Assembly (NCBI GenBank): GCA_947305005.1
Contig: CAMZCM010000008.1
Span: 1-64,000, forward strand
Direction of reading: 5' to 3'
DNA from: an uncultured Prevotellaceae bacterium
GTDB lineage: Bacteria > Bacteroidota > Bacteroidia > Bacteroidales > Bacteroidaceae
Length of the DNA: 64,000 nucleotides
Every line of letters begins with the position of its first letter. The first letter of the stretch is position 1. This document shows, piece after piece, positions 31,331 to 39,968 of this stretch. The notes under the pieces were generated by a model. That model was given only the letters and a program-made list of their open reading frames with translations, ran no database searches and was not told the origin of the DNA. The translations under genes and the position numbers were made by a program.

Positions 31331-31404
31331 CTCTGTGTGCTATCATACACCAATAAACTAACGAAGCCTGCAAAGGGGACTTGTCAGGCAGAACTTATGA
31401 AATC

Positions 31405-32028
31405 ATGAAAAAGTATTTGGTATTGGCACTTGTATGTGCTTTTACATGGGTATCTAATTCTTCTGCTACTGTTACTGTTAGTGAAAAGCAGATTGCCAAA
31501 GAAGTCAAAAAGGAAGTGAAGGCCTTGAAAAAGGAAGGCTGGAAAGTTCTTCCTGGTTCCTTACCTTTTGAGCGCCAAATGACTGATGTTTATCTCAAAC
31601 TGTATGATCGCGATGAAGTAGGTCGTACTAACTTTATCATCGGCACTTCTCAGGCTGTAGGTCAAAACATTGATGCAGCCCGCATTCAGGCTCAGTCACT
31701 TTGCAAGTTTGACATTGTTCAACAGACATCTACACAACTGACAGGTCTTATCGAAGAGAATGTAGCCAATAAGCAACTTTCTCCGAATGAGGCTGTCTCG
31801 ATTTCCGACGCTTTGGCAAAGAGCAAAGAGCTTATTTCTGGCAAATTGGGCCGCACGATTCCTTTGTTAGAATGCTACAAGCAACTCCCCAATGGTAATG
31901 TTCAGCTTTTAATCCGTGTAGGCTATTCCTCAGACGATGCTATCACCAAGGCTAAGGAGATTATCCGCGAACAGATGGGCGAAGAGCTGAAAGACCTGGG
32001 CAAAAAGCTGGATCTTCTTACAAAGTAA
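31405..32028 (+). CDS. Exported LPP20-like small protein (paralog 1)
   Basis: The ATG at 31405 begins a signal peptide (KKYLVLALVCAFTWVSNSSA), giving 207 residues. After it comes a basic helical stretch with KKEGWKVLPGSLPFE, then an alpha/beta segment (NFIIGTSQAVGQNIDAARIQAQ) resembling LPP20-type domains. There is no lipobox cysteine, so it should be a soluble periplasmic protein. The layout LKKEGWK, a short gap, a helix, then I-I-G-x-x-Q/S and a helix rich in alanine is shared with the 172-residue protein at 35193, so the two are paralogs bracketing the module. Function unknown. The CHASE2 gene begins 31 bases downstream. Confidence 0.7.
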   Translation: MKKYLVLALVCAFTWVSNSSATVTVSEKQIAKEVKKEVKALKKEGWKVLPGSLPFERQMTDVYLKLYDRDEVGRTNFIIGTSQAVGQNIDAARIQAQSLCKFDIVQQTSTQLTGLIEENVANKQLSPNEAVSISDALAKSKELISGKLGRTIPLLECYKQLPNGNVQLLIRVGYSSDDAITKAKEIIREQMGEELKDLGKKLDLLTK

Positions 32029-32059
32029 ATAGCAATTATCCACCTTATTCGTAAAGGAT

Positions 32060-33241
32060 ATGGCGGACGGCAAGATTAGATACTGGCTATATCAATGGTT
32101 ACAACGAGGTAAAGTCCTCGTTGTGACCATTATGGCTTTTATCGTATTGGGGGTCATGTTGTTCTTTACATACAACTTCACCTTCCTGAGTCCTGTAAAG
32201 AAGGCAGTCCAAGAGTTTTCAATGACAGATATCTATTATCAGATTCTACAAGAAACAGGAAAGCCTGATACTAGTCCATTGATTACTATTGTGGATATGA
32301 CAGAGATGACAAGCCGACGTGATTTGGCACGAGCACTTGAAGACATTGAGGCCTGTGGACCAAAGATTATCGGTGTAGATATCATTCTCGAAGGACGTAA
32401 GGACGATGTTGAAGGCGACGACATGATAACACAAGTGGCAGCCAACTACCAGAATATCATCTGGTCCATGAAGTTGACAGATTTTGTAGATGATGAATTA
32501 GAATATGGCGATGTCATCCGTTCTTTCTTCACAGATTCTTTGGAAGTGCAGGAAGGAGTCACGAACATGCAACGCAGGTTGTATGGAGGCGTCAAACGCA
32601 GACTCGATCAAGGTTGGTTGTTGAGAGGCCAACTAATGCCATCCTTCTCAACACGTGTTCTCAATGGTTATGCTGATAAAACTATTTACGATACAGAAAT
32701 ACAGTCCATTGATGTTAACTTCACACCGACAAATTTCACTGTTATCGATGCCGATTCTGTTTTGATGCACCCCGAATTAATAGCTGACCGCATCGTACTC
32801 TTTGGCGCAATGAACGAGGAAGCAGATATGCACTATACCCCTTTGGGTAAAATACCTGGCATCGTGCTGCTGGCCTATTCCATTCAGACACTATTAAGCC
32901 AAAATCAAATCGTTGAAGTCAAAGGCTTCACTTTATGGGCCTGTTCTTTCATCCTTATTATGCTTACCTACTGGGAACGAGTGAAACGTAAAAAATGGAT
33001 TGTCCATCATGCACATCCTATCGTCCAGTTAATCATTGGCTTTCCCATCGTCAGTTCTATCATTTCCTTCTTGTGGATGGCTTTGGCATTGTGGTTTGCC
33101 TTCCTCCTTTTCTGCGGTTATGATATTAGCTTTAACCTTGGTATCTCATTCTCTGCCATAGCATTTCTTACAACGGCAGAATATTCATATTTAACCTTAT
33201 TAGATTATTTAAAGTTAACGGATTTCAGCAATGAACAATAA
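32060..33241 (+). CDS. CHASE2-domain membrane protein without an output domain
   Basis: A 393-residue protein with one N-terminal membrane segment (about 19-41), a large extracytoplasmic CHASE2 domain (about 45-285) and three closely spaced C-terminal membrane segments (about 292-312, 325-347, 350-375). CHASE2 marks are LITIVDMTEMT, ACGPKIIGVDIILEG and ADRIVLFGAMNEEADMHYTPLG, ending in PGIVLLAYSIQTLL. CHASE2 proteins usually continue into a cyclase, kinase or similar after the three helices; here only about 15 cytoplasmic residues remain. It probably signals through a partner in this module. It overlaps the next gene by 11 bases. Confidence 0.82.
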   Translation: MADGKIRYWLYQWLQRGKVLVVTIMAFIVLGVMLFFTYNFTFLSPVKKAVQEFSMTDIYYQILQETGKPDTSPLITIVDMTEMTSRRDLARALEDIEACGPKIIGVDIILEGRKDDVEGDDMITQVAANYQNIIWSMKLTDFVDDELEYGDVIRSFFTDSLEVQEGVTNMQRRLYGGVKRRLDQGWLLRGQLMPSFSTRVLNGYADKTIYDTEIQSIDVNFTPTNFTVIDADSVLMHPELIADRIVLFGAMNEEADMHYTPLGKIPGIVLLAYSIQTLLSQNQIVEVKGFTLWACSFILIMLTYWERVKRKKWIVHHAHPIVQLIIGFPIVSSIISFLWMALALWFAFLLFCGYDISFNLGISFSAIAFLTTAEYSYLTLLDYLKLTDFSNEQ

Positions 33242-35174
33242 ATCATGGTTGGTAACGGTCATTATGTTATGTCTGACCGTTTCTTTTTCTCACGCTCAGC
33301 GTCTTGTGGTCTTCTCAGTAGCCGGAGGTCCAAAATTAGTAACTCCAGAAGGCAATACGCCTATTAAGGCTTATGATAATCTGACGATGTCATCTGTCGT
33401 TTCTATTCCCTATGATGCTTCTTTGGAACTCATTGACGAGGCAAATAGAAAGCAATATATTATCAAGACTCCTGGTAGAGACAAAATCAGTGCTTTCGTC
33501 AGTAACCGCAAAAATAGTGCTGTACAATTGACACAGCGTTTCATGGAGTATATCCAAAAACAGGTTACCAGTGGAACGAAGATATCTGCACGCCGCTTCA
33601 GCGATGCTGCTACTGTCACACGTGAAACACAGACCTATCAGAAAGAGGAGGAAGAAGAATTGGATGAATTTGCCAAAGAGTTTGCTGATTTCGACAAACA
33701 GGCAAAAGAAGAATATGAGACATTCCGCAATCAGTGTAATCAGGAATACGCTGATTTCATGGAAGAAGCTTGGTCTCAATTCCGCAGTGAAAAACCTATC
33801 CCTGCTCCCAAAGAGGAGGAAGTGAAGCCGTTGACTTTACCAGAGAAAGAACGTGGACAACAATTTAAAGGTAAACCCGTTGTCATTCAAGAGTTCGTGG
33901 CTCCTTTGATTCCTACGCCTCAACCTCTTCCTATCAATTATACGATACAAACGATTCCTGATGAAGTCGTGGTTGTAGATCCTCAACTGCCTACAGTACC
34001 TATTTTGATTAATAACTCAAATATTTCTGTTGCTCCTATCGAGCTTTTGAGAATCGATTCTGTCGTGCGTCCCAAGCCCGTTGGACAAGAACTCGCTTAT
34101 TATGGAACCAAGGTATTCGTACGTTATACGCCCAATCCTAACTTTAAGCTTCCTGACCTGAGCGAAAGAAGTATTTCAGAGGCTTGGACGGCTCTGTCAT
34201 CTGAGAGTATGGAGAATACCCTGATTGACTGTCTGAATATCCGCAAGCAACTACGCTTGAGCGATTGGGGCTACTTACTGCTGTTGGAACAAGTAGGACA
34301 AGCTTGTTTGGGTAAGGGCAGCAACGAAGCAACACTTCTGTCAGCCTATCTGTTCTGTCAGTCGGGTTATAAGATGCGTTTAGGTAAGTCAAAGACTCAG
34401 ATGATCCTGTTGTTTGGTAGCAGACATCTTATCTATGATAAATCATATTTTACCCTGAGTGGCGAGAACTTCTATCCACTTCACACAGACGAAGAGGAGC
34501 TGAGTATTTGTAACCTTCCTTATCCTGAGGAACAAGGTCTCTCATTGCTGTTGGTCAACGAACCTATCCTCAAAGAAGTTCGCTCTGATAAACGCACCCT
34601 CTCTTCTACCAATCAGCCTCAACTGAAAGTATCTGTTGACGTCAACAAGAACCTGTTAGATTTCTATTCCGATTATCCTGCTTCACAGATTGGTGGCGAT
34701 ATGCTCTCTCGCTGGGCCATGTATGCAAATACACCTCTTGACGTGAAAGTCAAAGAACAGCTCTATCCTGCTTTGAAGGAAAAGCTGAAAGGTAAAAGCG
34801 AGAAAGAGGCTGTTAGCATCCTTTTGGATTTCGTACAGTGGTCATTGACCTACAAATATGATGAGGATATCTGGGGTTATGATCGTGCATTCTTCGCTGA
34901 AGAAACCTTGTTCTATCCTTATGCTGACTGTGAGGACCGCAGTATCCTCTTCTCTCGTCTCGTGCGTGATTTAGTCGGTTTGAAGGTCGTGTTGGTTTAT
35001 TATCCTGGCCACTTGGCATCAGCTGTACATTTCAATGAAAATGTAGAAGGTGATTATCTGGAACATGAAGGCAAACGTTTCGTGATCTGTGATGCCACCT
35101 ATTTTGGTGCACCCATTGGCAAGACAATGTCTGGCATGGATAATAAAACCGCAAAAGCAGTTCTATTGGATTAA
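33231..35174 (+). CDS. Exported FecR-like / transglutaminase-like protein
   Basis: A 647-residue exported protein (signal peptide 1-22). Residues about 25-85 look like a FecR/SH3-type beta domain (VVFSVAGGPKLVTPEG ... SSVVSIPYDASLELID). Residues about 125-190 are a very acidic, aromatic helical stretch (EELDEFAKEFADFDKQ ... EEYETFRNQ ... EYADFMEEAW), followed by a proline-rich link. The C-terminal third carries a transglutaminase/papain-like core with Cys567 (YADCEDRS), His594 (YYPGHLASAVH) and Asp621 (VICDATYFG), a full catalytic triad. It could act as a peptidase, transamidase or crosslinking enzyme in the periplasm. Substrate unknown. Starts inside the CHASE2 gene and ends 18 bases before paralog 2. 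Confidence 0.8.
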   Translation: MNNKSWLVTVIMLCLTVSFSHAQRLVVFSVAGGPKLVTPEGNTPIKAYDNLTMSSVVSIPYDASLELIDEANRKQYIIKTPGRDKISAFVSNRKNSAVQLTQRFMEYIQKQVTSGTKISARRFSDAATVTRETQTYQKEEEEELDEFAKEFADFDKQAKEEYETFRNQCNQEYADFMEEAWSQFRSEKPIPAPKEEEVKPLTLPEKERGQQFKGKPVVIQEFVAPLIPTPQPLPINYTIQTIPDEVVVVDPQLPTVPILINNSNISVAPIELLRIDSVVRPKPVGQELAYYGTKVFVRYTPNPNFKLPDLSERSISEAWTALSSESMENTLIDCLNIRKQLRLSDWGYLLLLEQVGQACLGKGSNEATLLSAYLFCQSGYKMRLGKSKTQMILLFGSRHLIYDKSYFTLSGENFYPLHTDEEELSICNLPYPEEQGLSLLLVNEPILKEVRSDKRTLSSTNQPQLKVSVDVNKNLLDFYSDYPASQIGGDMLSRWAMYANTPLDVKVKEQLYPALKEKLKGKSEKEAVSILLDFVQWSLTYKYDEDIWGYDRAFFAEETLFYPYADCEDRSILFSRLVRDLVGLKVVLVYYPGHLASAVHFNENVEGDYLEHEGKRFVICDATYFGAPIGKTMSGMDNKTAKAVLLD

Positions 35175-35192
35175 TATAAAACGGAAAACAAT

Positions 35193-35711
35193 ATGCGACT
35201 GTTGAACAACATAACGATTGCTTTTATAGCGCTTTTCTTCACAGGGAGCGCCTTCTGCTGGTCTGCTAATCCCTTAAGCAAGGCCATGCAGAAAGCATAT
35301 AAAGCAGAATGTAAGCAGTTGAAGAAAGAGGGTTGGAAGCTTGATAACAACACTCTATCTGTCGAAGATGCTATGCTAGAATATTATCAGCAATTGGATA
35401 AAGGTGGGCAGAATGTCATGCACATCATTGGTTTTGGTCAGAGCAAAACAGCTAACATTGCGCTCCAAAAAGCGATGACCAATGCAAGGGCACAATGGAC
35501 TGCCACACAAGGAAGTAATGTGTCAGGCTCAACGACCATTCAAATATCCAATGAACAGTCAGCTTCTCCTACAAGCAAACAGGAATCCGAAAGCACCATC
35601 CGCTCCAGCTCTGAGCAAGTGGTGAAGGGCTTTCATCCTACTGTGAATCTTTCGCGCACTTTGCCCGACGGTACCATAGAAGTAAGATTGTATTACATTA
35701 CTGCCCGCTAA
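35193..35711 (+). CDS. Exported LPP20-like small protein (paralog 2)
   Basis: A 172-residue exported protein with a signal peptide to about residue 22. It repeats the pattern of the 31405 protein: KQLKKEGWKL, a helix, then HIIGFGQSKTANIALQKAMTNARAQ. Residues about 110-145 are a Ser/Thr/Gln/Glu-rich stretch before a C-terminal beta strand (LSRTLPDGTIEVRLYY). No lipobox. It ends the four-gene module; a strong terminator follows. Function unknown. Confidence 0.7.
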   Translation: MRLLNNITIAFIALFFTGSAFCWSANPLSKAMQKAYKAECKQLKKEGWKLDNNTLSVEDAMLEYYQQLDKGGQNVMHIIGFGQSKTANIALQKAMTNARAQWTATQGSNVSGSTTIQISNEQSASPTSKQESESTIRSSSEQVVKGFHPTVNLSRTLPDGTIEVRLYYITAR

Positions 35712-35736
35712 CCTTCAACGTCTAACCTTATACTTA

Positions 35737-35769
35737 GGGCTGGCACCGAGCAATGGTGTCAGCCCTTTT
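35737..35769 (+). terminator. Rho-independent terminator of the CHASE2 module
   Basis: GGGCTGGCACC pairs with GGTGTCAGCCC over a seven-base loop (one G-U pair) and is followed by TTTT. It lies 25 bases after the stop of the last gene. Confidence 0.9.
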
Positions 35770-36853: not shown

Positions 36854-36988
36854 CTATTTTGCTTGCTTGTCCCATCTTAATTCGTACTCTTCTTGCGTAA
36901 AAGGTGGAGTTGGGTCAATGATGAGGACCTCATCGTAAGTCAGGCCGTAGAGGGGATAGATGATGATGTCGATTTCTTTATTCTTCAC
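36854..36988 (-). pseudogene. Spare C-terminal fragment of an Eco57I-type methyltransferase
   Basis: In the minus frame shifted by one from the end of the methyltransferase gene, 44 codons read from a GTG at 36988 to a TAG at 36854. They include IDIIIYPLYGLTYDEVLIID, matching the ending of the intact gene next door (IDDYIGPLYGLTEEEISFI). This second ending overlaps the intact stop by eleven bases. It is probably left from replacement or duplication of the specificity/C-terminal part. Confidence 0.65.
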
Positions 36989-39968
36989 CTGACATTCTGA
37001 ATTCTATTTCATAGTTCTTTATGAAACTTATCTCTTCTTCTGTCAATCCATAGAGCGGACCTATATAATCATCAATCTTGTCAATTATAGATTTCGATTT
37101 GCCTATCTTATACTCCTTGAATGAGTCCACATTATAACTTGATGTTCCACTAGATACACGTACATTGGCATTACGTTCTATATCTTTAAGGTATTCAATG
37201 TATAATCTATTGAGAGCTTCTACCGCACTCTGATGTAAATTTGGAATTACAAAAGAGAGTATTTCGCATGACTTCCAATCTAGGTTGTTTGAATAAATTT
37301 GATAAAACCAAAAACTGAGATTACTTGATAAAAGGCATCCAATAGCATCTCTATACTTTTCCTTGACACAGAATGACTTTTCCTTAGTTGAACCAGTACT
37401 ATAGTTTGTTACGACCTTAAAATATCTTCCTCCACTTGTTCTATAATAAATCTTACCACCTTCATCATCAAGATATTCATTTATCTCTTGATGAGATAAT
37501 AATTTAGATAGTATTCTTCTTTCAATGTTAGAAGATATTTTGGGGATTCTTCCAAACTTCATAAAGTCCTTGACCTCTGCAAAATGCAGGTTGTCAATTA
37601 GATTCTGAAGATTGAAGGTTTTTCCCTTACGATGCATCTTTGTAGATAGTACTTGTCGACATTCAGTATCAGTTCTTTGACACTGAAAAATAGATGTGTT
37701 TACAACAGCATTTTCAAATACAGGCTGGGGTCTGACAGCATAAGAGGAAACACGTAGGGTTTCACATGATTTCATTATTAAATTATGAATGCCTGAGAGC
37801 GAATCGCTGGATGTGAAAGATATCGGAACAATAAATGTTAGACTCCCACCTTTACGAAGTATCGAAAAACTTTTTTCAATAAACAACGTATAAGAGTCCA
37901 TTGACCCCTTTTGCAAATTCCGTATAGTTTTTGTTGTATTATATATTTGCTTGAAGGTCCTTTTTTCTTCTTCTGTGAACTTAGCCCCATATGGTGGATT
38001 TCCTATTACAATATCGAATCCACCTTGCGAGAAAACATCATAGAACCATGTGTGCCAAAGCATGAATTGATTGTTGCCAGACAAATCAGGGTCTCCTTCT
38101 TCATAAGTTACACCTTGCTCATCAAGTTGCTTAACCACATTATTAATAATAGTTTTTCGTAGTTTCTGCTTTTCTTCATGATCTGTACAATCATAATAGT
38201 TGGAGAGCAGCTCACAAAGATTTTTGCGATATATATCTAGCATGTCATCAAAGATTGTCAGCATCCCTGATTCATCGACTTTCTTCTCTGTCATTGTAGA
38301 GAGATTAATACCCGCATACTGTTCCAACAACGAGTTGCCTTGCATAATCTTGAAATCGAGGTTTGGCAGAGCCTGTGGCGTTTCTTCATCGACAATCAGG
38401 GAGAGCCAGAAGCGGAGGCGAGCAATGTCAACAGCACCACGTTCGATATCAACGCCATAGATGTTCTGCTGAATGATATGCTTCTTGATTTCTGCGGCTT
38501 TGCTTTGTTCTATGCCTTCAAGAACCGTACGACAAAGGAAGAGTTCTTTTAACAGGCCCATGGGGAATGCACCAGAGCCAATGGCTGGGTCGCAAATCTT
38601 CACATCACAAAGGGCTTGGTCCACTTGCTGGCGGAACTTGTTGTTTGTACCAAGTGCCTCTACATCATGGGTAGTTACAAATTGACGGATGGCTTCTTTT
38701 GTTGCTTCGTCTTCAATATCCGTCTGCAGGTAAGCAATCAAGCTCTCACGGCACATATAACTGACAATTTCCTTAGGAGTATAGAAAGCTCCTTTATCCT
38801 TATTGTCTTCCAACAAGTTCTCGAAGATGCGGCCCAACATTTCTGGGTCAACGCCAACCTCTGCGTCATTAGGATCATTTTCGTCAATGGTGAAGTTGTA
38901 ACTGCTGAAGAAGTCGAGCAGCGACTGCATATATTGTGCAGGCAATGGGAAAGCTGTTTCATCAGCGGCTTCACGCTCAAAGAGACCACCATTTAAATAA
39001 GGTACGCGTATATTGTGACCAACGGCTGGCGACACAAGATCATTGGTACGTTCTGTGTTGAGGTCATTGAACAAGGGCTCCAGAACATTATCAATGAAAT
39101 GGTCTTTATCGGCGCAATGCGTAAAGAGATTCTGGGTGAATTCCCCATCGCCTGTACCCCATGGTTCTCCAACAGGAACACCCAACCAACCTTTCTTCTG
39201 TAAGAATTGGAGGAATACAAGTCGTCCCATCAGTTTCTTCACATAGTCACGAACAGCCTTCTCAGGATCAAGGAATGACGCGAACTCATGCATGATTTCC
39301 TCGCATGGGTCATTGATCACTTTCTCTTCCCACTTATTGGCAACCTTTACCATTCGCTTGCCAGTGATGAATTGGATGATGTCCTCATAGTGTTTCTTGT
39401 ATTTGTCAAAGAACTCTTTGGACAACGCTTCCACAGAAAATGCATGTTCAATGTCAGACATCATCAGCGATCCTCTTTTGTTGAACAGATTGACGAAATT
39501 GTCAGCAGCTGTTCGGCAAGACTGCCCTGGGCCAAGAAGGAACGTGTAGCGTTTTCTATCTGTGGCATCATTGTTGCTCCCCAACTTTTGGCAGAACGTA
39601 AAACGCCAGTCCCAGCGCTTCCCATCCTTGTAATGGAACAACATAAAGGACAATGAATAGACATCCATTGCCCTTCGTATCAACTGTTGAATGCCAACGC
39701 GGTTCCTCTGCATGAGTACTCGGTCCGAGACTGTGATATCAAAGATTTGCAGAGGGTCATCCACATAGATGGTGCCAATCTGTTTCACGCTATTGATACC
39801 TGATTCCTTTGCAAGCGCTTGCAGTTCAGGCTGTGTCTCAAGCAGTTCTGTTTCGTAAGCGTCATCAAAAGACTCTTCACCGAAAATAGGGAAGATGATG
39901 TTTTCGAGAAACGATTGTGGCCCCTGATAGGCAGTACTGAGATATTGTTTGAGTGATGCTGTATCCAT
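36978..39968 (-). CDS. Eco57I-type N6-adenine DNA methyltransferase
   Basis: A 996-residue protein. The N-terminal 330 residues are a helical/beta region with no PD-(D/E)xK motif I can identify (FDITVSDRVLMQRNRVGIQQLIRRA near 85). The gamma-type methyltransferase core follows: FYTPKEIVSYM near 410, motif I DPAIGSGAFPMGLL near 460 and motif IV IGNPPYGAKF near 655. The last 220 residues are a target-recognition-like region ending in PLYGLTEEEI. It should methylate adenine in double-stranded DNA. The gene follows the PLD-helicase gene by 12 bases, so both are made together: the methylase may mark self DNA while the partner attacks unmodified DNA. Related to PglX/DrmMI-like enzymes by architecture only. 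Confidence 0.85.
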   Translation of the reverse strand: MDTASLKQYLSTAYQGPQSFLENIIFPIFGEESFDDAYETELLETQPELQALAKESGINSVKQIGTIYVDDPLQIFDITVSDRVLMQRNRVGIQQLIRRAMDVYSLSFMLFHYKDGKRWDWRFTFCQKLGSNNDATDRKRYTFLLGPGQSCRTAADNFVNLFNKRGSLMMSDIEHAFSVEALSKEFFDKYKKHYEDIIQFITGKRMVKVANKWEEKVINDPCEEIMHEFASFLDPEKAVRDYVKKLMGRLVFLQFLQKKGWLGVPVGEPWGTGDGEFTQNLFTHCADKDHFIDNVLEPLFNDLNTERTNDLVSPAVGHNIRVPYLNGGLFEREAADETAFPLPAQYMQSLLDFFSSYNFTIDENDPNDAEVGVDPEMLGRIFENLLEDNKDKGAFYTPKEIVSYMCRESLIAYLQTDIEDEATKEAIRQFVTTHDVEALGTNNKFRQQVDQALCDVKICDPAIGSGAFPMGLLKELFLCRTVLEGIEQSKAAEIKKHIIQQNIYGVDIERGAVDIARLRFWLSLIVDEETPQALPNLDFKIMQGNSLLEQYAGINLSTMTEKKVDESGMLTIFDDMLDIYRKNLCELLSNYYDCTDHEEKQKLRKTIINNVVKQLDEQGVTYEEGDPDLSGNNQFMLWHTWFYDVFSQGGFDIVIGNPPYGAKFTEEEKRTFKQIYNTTKTIRNLQKGSMDSYTLFIEKSFSILRKGGSLTFIVPISFTSSDSLSGIHNLIMKSCETLRVSSYAVRPQPVFENAVVNTSIFQCQRTDTECRQVLSTKMHRKGKTFNLQNLIDNLHFAEVKDFMKFGRIPKISSNIERRILSKLLSHQEINEYLDDEGGKIYYRTSGGRYFKVVTNYSTGSTKEKSFCVKEKYRDAIGCLLSSNLSFWFYQIYSNNLDWKSCEILSFVIPNLHQSAVEALNRLYIEYLKDIERNANVRVSSGTSSYNVDSFKEYKIGKSKSIIDKIDDYIGPLYGLTEEEISFIKNYEIEFRMSGEE

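Follow-up and report, generated by a model that had tools for sequence, protein, structure and literature searches.

An output-less CHASE2 protein with putative exported FecR-like and transglutaminase-like partners in Bacteroidota

Four genes around a CHASE2 protein

Here we describe a locus in an uncultured Prevotellaceae bacterium (assembly GCA_947305005.1, contig CAMZCM010000008.1), analysed within the window (that is, the whole stretch of 64,000 nucleotides, positions 1 to 64,000 of the forward strand). Four consecutive plus-strand open reading frames (A, B, C and D) at 31405-35711 encode a CHASE2 protein without an output domain (B), a protein that joins a FecR-like domain (CN) to a transglutaminase-like domain (TG) (C), and two paralogues on either side of this pair (A and D; the A/D family). 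Comparison with other Bacteroidota loci identifies the output-less CHASE2 protein and the exported FecR-like CN as the constant core of this arrangement, with an effector position that is swappable among TG, TPR-CHAT, caspase C14 and C14 with a papain-like protein. The features of the locus are as follows.

31405..32028, + strand: gene A, 207 amino acids, export-type, A/D family, weakly LPP20-like (open reading frame, N-terminal hydrophobic segment, paralogy with D, 34-member alignment)
32060..33241, + strand: gene B, 393 amino acids, CHASE2 protein without output domain, 1+3 long hydrophobic helices in the model (PF05226, hydropathy, model, homologues)
32195..32959, + strand: CHASE2 domain of B, predicted periplasmic (PF05226 match)
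33231..35174, + strand: gene C, 647 amino acids, CN fused to a TG-like domain, export-type (open reading frame; at 10 loci CN and TG have a gene each)
33231..33644, + strand: CN domain, residues 1-138 of C (signal segment, FecR-like beta domain, SDAATVTR at residues 124-131)
34653..35171, + strand: TG-like (LapG-like) fold, residues 475-647 of C (triad C567-H594-D621, motif D566-C567-E568-D569)
35193..35711, + strand: gene D, 172 amino acids, export-type, paralogue of A (open reading frame, blastp, hydropathy)
35736..35766, + strand: intrinsic terminator (13-pair stem, then a short T tail)

The tight spacing and strong terminator reported in the initial annotation are borne out, given that A and B lie 31 nucleotides apart, B and C overlap by 11 nucleotides, C and D are separated by 18, and the 13-pair terminator reaches -24 kcal/mol with a z of -4.6. 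For gene A, the open-reading-frame call takes the TTG at 31381 as start; the ATG at 31405 agrees with the initial annotation. A 16-pair hairpin at 32094-32131, among the opening codons of the CHASE2 gene, may be a regulatory RNA element or may have arisen by chance (the hairpin scan gave terminator-like sites about equally often in shuffled sequence).

CHASE2 is usually viewed as a sensor that feeds cytoplasmic kinases or cyclases. Protein B matches PF05226 (CHASE2) at 77.6 bits (curated cut-off 26.3) and no other Pfam domain, leaving it without a cytoplasmic output domain (kinase, cyclase or similar) and without a cyclic-di-GMP-binding domain. Hydropathy gives three membrane segments, and the structural model (predicted local distance difference test (pLDDT) 89.5) places one long helix before the CHASE2 domain and three after it; because the chain ends 7 residues past the last modelled helix, B carries no output domain, as had been claimed.

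In the model of C (pLDDT 86.2), a helical linker joins an N-terminal beta domain (CN) to a large C-terminal part, and as CN and TG are separate genes in 10 of 40 TG loci, C represents a fusion of two parts. The terms FecR-like (for CN) and LPP20-like (for A/D) denote resemblances under Pfam thresholds. Neither C nor the 10 separate CN proteins matched FecR (PF04773) at E <= 1, and alignment of CN with three FecR-type proteins by hhalign gave a probability of 82% with a broad CN set (a match that includes the signal peptides) and 7% with a narrow one. The TG part scores 15.2 bits against PF01841 (transglutaminase-like; cut-off 23), a profile matched at E <= 0.01 by 17 of 76 TG homologues. An intact Cys-His-Asp triad (C567-H594-D621), as initially annotated, lies within the transglutaminase fold, and both the triad and a D-C-E-D motif are invariant across all 76 aligned TG proteins. 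Among the 67 TG genes of the loci, 64 have C-H-D, one (L109) has Ser, and two do not span the site. The best structural match of the predicted TG fold is LapG, a known biofilm-releasing protease, although Peptidase_C93 (PF06035) matched none of the four proteins at E <= 1 and nothing in this genome at E <= 0.001. The D-C-E around the catalytic cysteine (76/76) may correspond to the calcium-site acids of LapG, but acids flanking the cysteine also occur in other transglutaminase-core proteins.

Proteins A, C and D each have a single N-terminal hydrophobic segment by hydropathy. A and D are indeed paralogous exported-type proteins bracketing B and C (blastp, 27% over 166 amino acids, E about 5e-9 in a database of these four proteins only). 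Against LPP20 (PF02169), A gave no match, D scored 12.3 bits (cut-off 25.9), and 4 of 34 A/D members matched at E <= 0.1 (best 0.0021).

Constant core and exchangeable effectors

A scan of GTDB species genomes recovered 47 CHASE2 loci, 45 of them in Bacteroidales (L094 and L095, which are short matches outside Bacteroidota, are excluded from the 45). Profiles seeded with the window proteins detected CN in 45/45, TG in 40/45 and A/D in 29/45. The five loci without TG are L069 (contig end inside CN), L085 and L086 (TPR-CHAT), and L091 and L092 (Sel1-caspase C14), and a caspase C14 gene lies somewhere in the fetched stretch at 23/45 loci, mostly those with TG. A/D genes on the same strand and no more than 6 kb away accompany 29 of 42 CHASE2 loci with TG and none of 11 CHASE2-CHAT loci (a tally that lacks L071 and L093 owing to the gene caller, though both are within the 45, and for which L121, a short match in genome G029, yielded no CHASE2 gene); of 17 TG stretches that were fetched and lack CHASE2, 11 also contain them, one of the 11 on the opposite strand. 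As A/D accompany TG rather than CHASE2, they are likely partners of TG. The proposal that the four genes form a module is partly upheld, in that they are found together in many genomes and the triad is conserved, but the natural unit is a different one: CHASE2 and CN are the constant pair, and A/D follow TG.

A longer array, in the order A, TG, CHASE2, CN/TG, D, DUF4384-like, unknown and caspase, occurs at L049, L051, L053, L058 and L059. In a tree of CHASE2 (L090, with CHASE2 split over two frames, was omitted; L069 was labelled TG with no TG gene seen, and L111 was labelled 'none'), the window's CHASE2 falls, together with those of these five loci and of L050, into a clade of seven rows (support 100/99). 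Given that it nests among longer-array loci, the window locus is best read as a reduced form of that array. Elsewhere in the same genome, a second contig groups an OmpA-like gene with genes for an export-type caspase and a DUF4384-like protein, and on a third contig a small caspase lies close to an A/D-TG pair; CHAT was not found in this genome. The four effector labels require 4 changes on the tree (minimum 3; shuffled labels 13.1), and a CHAT clade (L116-L118 and L120) is placed, weakly, among TG rows.

Same-genus loci L112-L120 combine CHASE2 with TPR-CHAT and have CN in between, except L115, in which CN was not detected. A CHAT search in 13 same-genus CHASE2 genomes was positive in nine (eight with a single match and one, G034, with two pieces on separate contigs), and each of the nine has a match 2.9-3.5 kb from CHASE2, where 0.05 such cases would be expected; a C14 search in 26 genomes of the phylum sample described below was positive in 16, of which 7 have a copy <=6 kb from CHASE2 (expected 0.125), and both expected numbers serve as guides rather than tests, the genomes being related. 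The C14 counts per genome are lower bounds (the window's own genome has one copy listed and another by hmmscan of L096, and in L193 only a custom profile found the caspase-like genes), and as the search misses copies, the expected numbers are too low by some factor.

Across the phylum, 87 of 394 sampled Bacteroidota genomes matched the CHASE2 profile, and 31 stretches were fetched from these, mostly the best-scoring. Among the 26 output-less loci (that is, with a CHASE2 protein of <= 500 amino acids), CN lies within 6 kb in 21 and a caspase-like or CHAT gene in 9. Loci L163-L165 encode CHASE2, CN, a 450-amino-acid protein, a small protein and a caspase; the 450-amino-acid protein of L163 is papain-like by Pfam scan, and its counterparts in L164 and L165 are similar by eye only. 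In L171 (4758-6704), CN, caspase C14 and an outer-membrane beta-barrel form a single chain, so that the caspase is apparently anchored in the outer membrane. In L166 (8633-10885), CHASE2 and CN form a single open frame of 750 amino acids, with basic residues and then a hydrophobic stretch between the domains. By the positive-inside rule, basic residues ahead of this stretch would place CN outside; hence the CN of this fusion probably lies outside the inner membrane.

An N-terminal hydrophobic segment is present in 68/69 TG, 59/59 CN, 38/40 caspase, 11/12 CHAT and 54/54 A/D genes (loci up to L126; a simple hydropathy test, no signal-peptide predictor, with genes truncated at the locus start excluded). 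Caspase genes encoding >300 amino acids retain both the His and Cys motifs in 33/39 cases, and as the TG triad is likewise retained, most candidate effectors appear to have an intact catalytic site. Unlike in the usual view of CHASE2, both its constant partner and these candidate effectors look extracytoplasmic.

Two other arrangements concern the caspase genes. At L096 (4938-9383; contig C11 of the window's own genome), a caspase C14, a very weakly sigma-70 region 4-like protein, a small membrane-type protein, A/D and TG follow in series, and gene sizes resembling this row recur in L097 and L126, possibly as a version linked to extracytoplasmic function (ECF) sigma/anti-sigma factors. At L068 (350-6513), four consecutive export-type caspase-family genes lie just upstream of CHASE2, two of them without one or both usual catalytic motifs, which may reflect active and inactive sets.

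A possible periplasmic route and its rivals

We suggest that the window holds the transglutaminase-type version of a Bacteroidota module in which an exported LapG-like protease is under the control of CHASE2 and CN, entirely within the periplasm, and we give this reading a probability of about one half. CHASE2 would perceive an envelope cue and, by touching CN directly, relay it to a cysteine peptidase that is exported. In this genome the peptidase would be the LapG-like domain fused to CN, such that a single chain, tethered to the receptor, would hold both enzyme and adaptor. This peptidase would in turn cut an envelope protein, or be restrained from cutting it, with A/D as companions that may serve as substrate, inhibitor or chaperone. 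As B lacks a cyclic-di-GMP domain, the cue would have to come from the periplasm or the membrane. The initial annotation's notion of wholly periplasmic signalling gains from the replacement of TG by other export-type cysteine peptidases and from the CHASE2-CN fusion across an extra hydrophobic segment; within it, the order of the genes, their conservation, the fusions, the exchange of effectors, the intact triad and the predicted fold are observed, and what we infer is the contact of CHASE2 with CN, the proteolysis, the signal, the substrate and the direction of control. More tentatively, and with rather less than an even chance in our view, the pathway may be phylum-wide and outside the cytoplasm, with an output-less CHASE2 and a FecR-like adaptor switching interchangeable exported caspases, CHAT proteins and LapG-like enzymes.

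This logic would resemble that of LapD-LapG with other parts (CHASE2 as receptor, CN as adaptor, and TG, CHAT or C14 as peptidase). Passages in PMC4359373 describe LapD-LapG as an inner-membrane receptor with a periplasmic transglutaminase-fold cysteine protease, and in the relevant part of PMC13090378, LapD loaded with cyclic-di-GMP holds LapG back. The locus shares with LapD-LapG and with DvhD-DvhG of Desulfovibrio a membrane receptor and a transglutaminase-fold protein with a C-H-D triad, LapG being the best structural match, and the acids on either side of the catalytic cysteine (D566-C567-E568 in C) have counterparts in D316-C317-E318 of DvhG, as given in PMC13090378. It differs in lacking a Peptidase_C93 match, in having a CHASE2 receptor without a cyclic-di-GMP domain (and thus no signal entry through such a domain), in the fusion of effector and CN in C, and in the use of caspase or CHAT as effector in relatives. 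The Burkholderia BiofilmReg operon, as a section of PMC5192318 presents it, likewise has a CHASE2 receptor gene beside a gene for an exported FecR-domain protein; there, CHASE2 is part of a histidine kinase and is accompanied by a response regulator, neither of which is among the four window proteins. A link between CHASE2 and a caspase-family peptidase is also found in the metacaspase-CHASE2 fusion of Trichodesmium, which in excerpts of PMC2853523 and PMC3501461 is one chain with a caspase predicted to be cytoplasmic, in contrast to the separate export-type peptidases here, and a passage in PMC8195603 lists CHASE2 among the variable domains, several in number, at the C-terminus of caspase proteins. 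No description of exported peptidases with an output-less CHASE2 was found in the open-access literature searched, and the initial annotation likewise knew of none for the set.

Several observations weigh against the proposed gating. Of the 26 output-less loci, 17 show no same-strand match to C14, CHAT or TG within 6 kb and a CN match is missing in 5, so that CHASE2-CN may do another job there; the same-genus locus L111 likewise has no CN and no peptidase match within 6 kb. CHASE2 is patchy (15 of 61 related genomes including this one, and none of the 24 from other families), so that the module is dispensable, and TG proteins also occur with A/D without CHASE2. A Foldseek search with the TG fold returned nothing at E <= 0.001 (best 2.2e-3), and a fold common to TG and LapG does not equal a common function.

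An unlikely alternative, yet the one that fares best, is cytoplasmic output in trans, in which the CHASE2 helices control a kinase, a cyclase or a sigma/anti-sigma pair encoded separately, with the exported enzymes only as regulated targets. It draws on L189, with a longer CHASE2 protein that carries a cyclase domain, on L191, where a true FecR protein is encoded close to a long CHASE2 protein (which also fits CN as a FecR counterpart, as the profile comparison weakly supports), and on L096, in which A/D-TG lies beside a small membrane-type protein and a protein whose match to sigma-70 region 4 is very weak (E 0.043, under the cut-off). However, B has no cytoplasmic domain, the extra domain of L166 comes after a further hydrophobic segment and probably lies outside, and no separate kinase or cyclase was found among the Pfam-scanned neighbours, in which these were not sought systematically. 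Slightly less probable still, the TG-like domain might not be a protease and might instead cross-link or remodel envelope proteins or cell-wall peptides with A/D, with CHASE2-CN as scaffold; the best structural match is a protease, though, and relatives carry caspase or CHAT at the same position, including the caspase and papain-family protein of L163. A regulated self-damage or phage-response module, a role proposed for other bacterial caspase systems and compatible with export-type caspases and CHAT proteins as alternative effectors, we consider very improbable, since no PADLOC match was found for the four proteins at E <= 1 (defence-type neighbours were not sought systematically) and the phage records contained no CHASE2 match.

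If the proposed gating of an exported protease by CHASE2 and CN is correct, a receptor and an adaptor would have been found for exported bacterial caspases and CHAT proteins, and the LapD-LapG principle (that is, a receptor gating a periplasmic cysteine protease) would extend to another sensor and another phylum. Downstream of the locus, at 36978-39968 on the minus strand, the window also contains an open reading frame of 996 amino acids that by eye resembles an N6-adenine methyltransferase/restriction protein.
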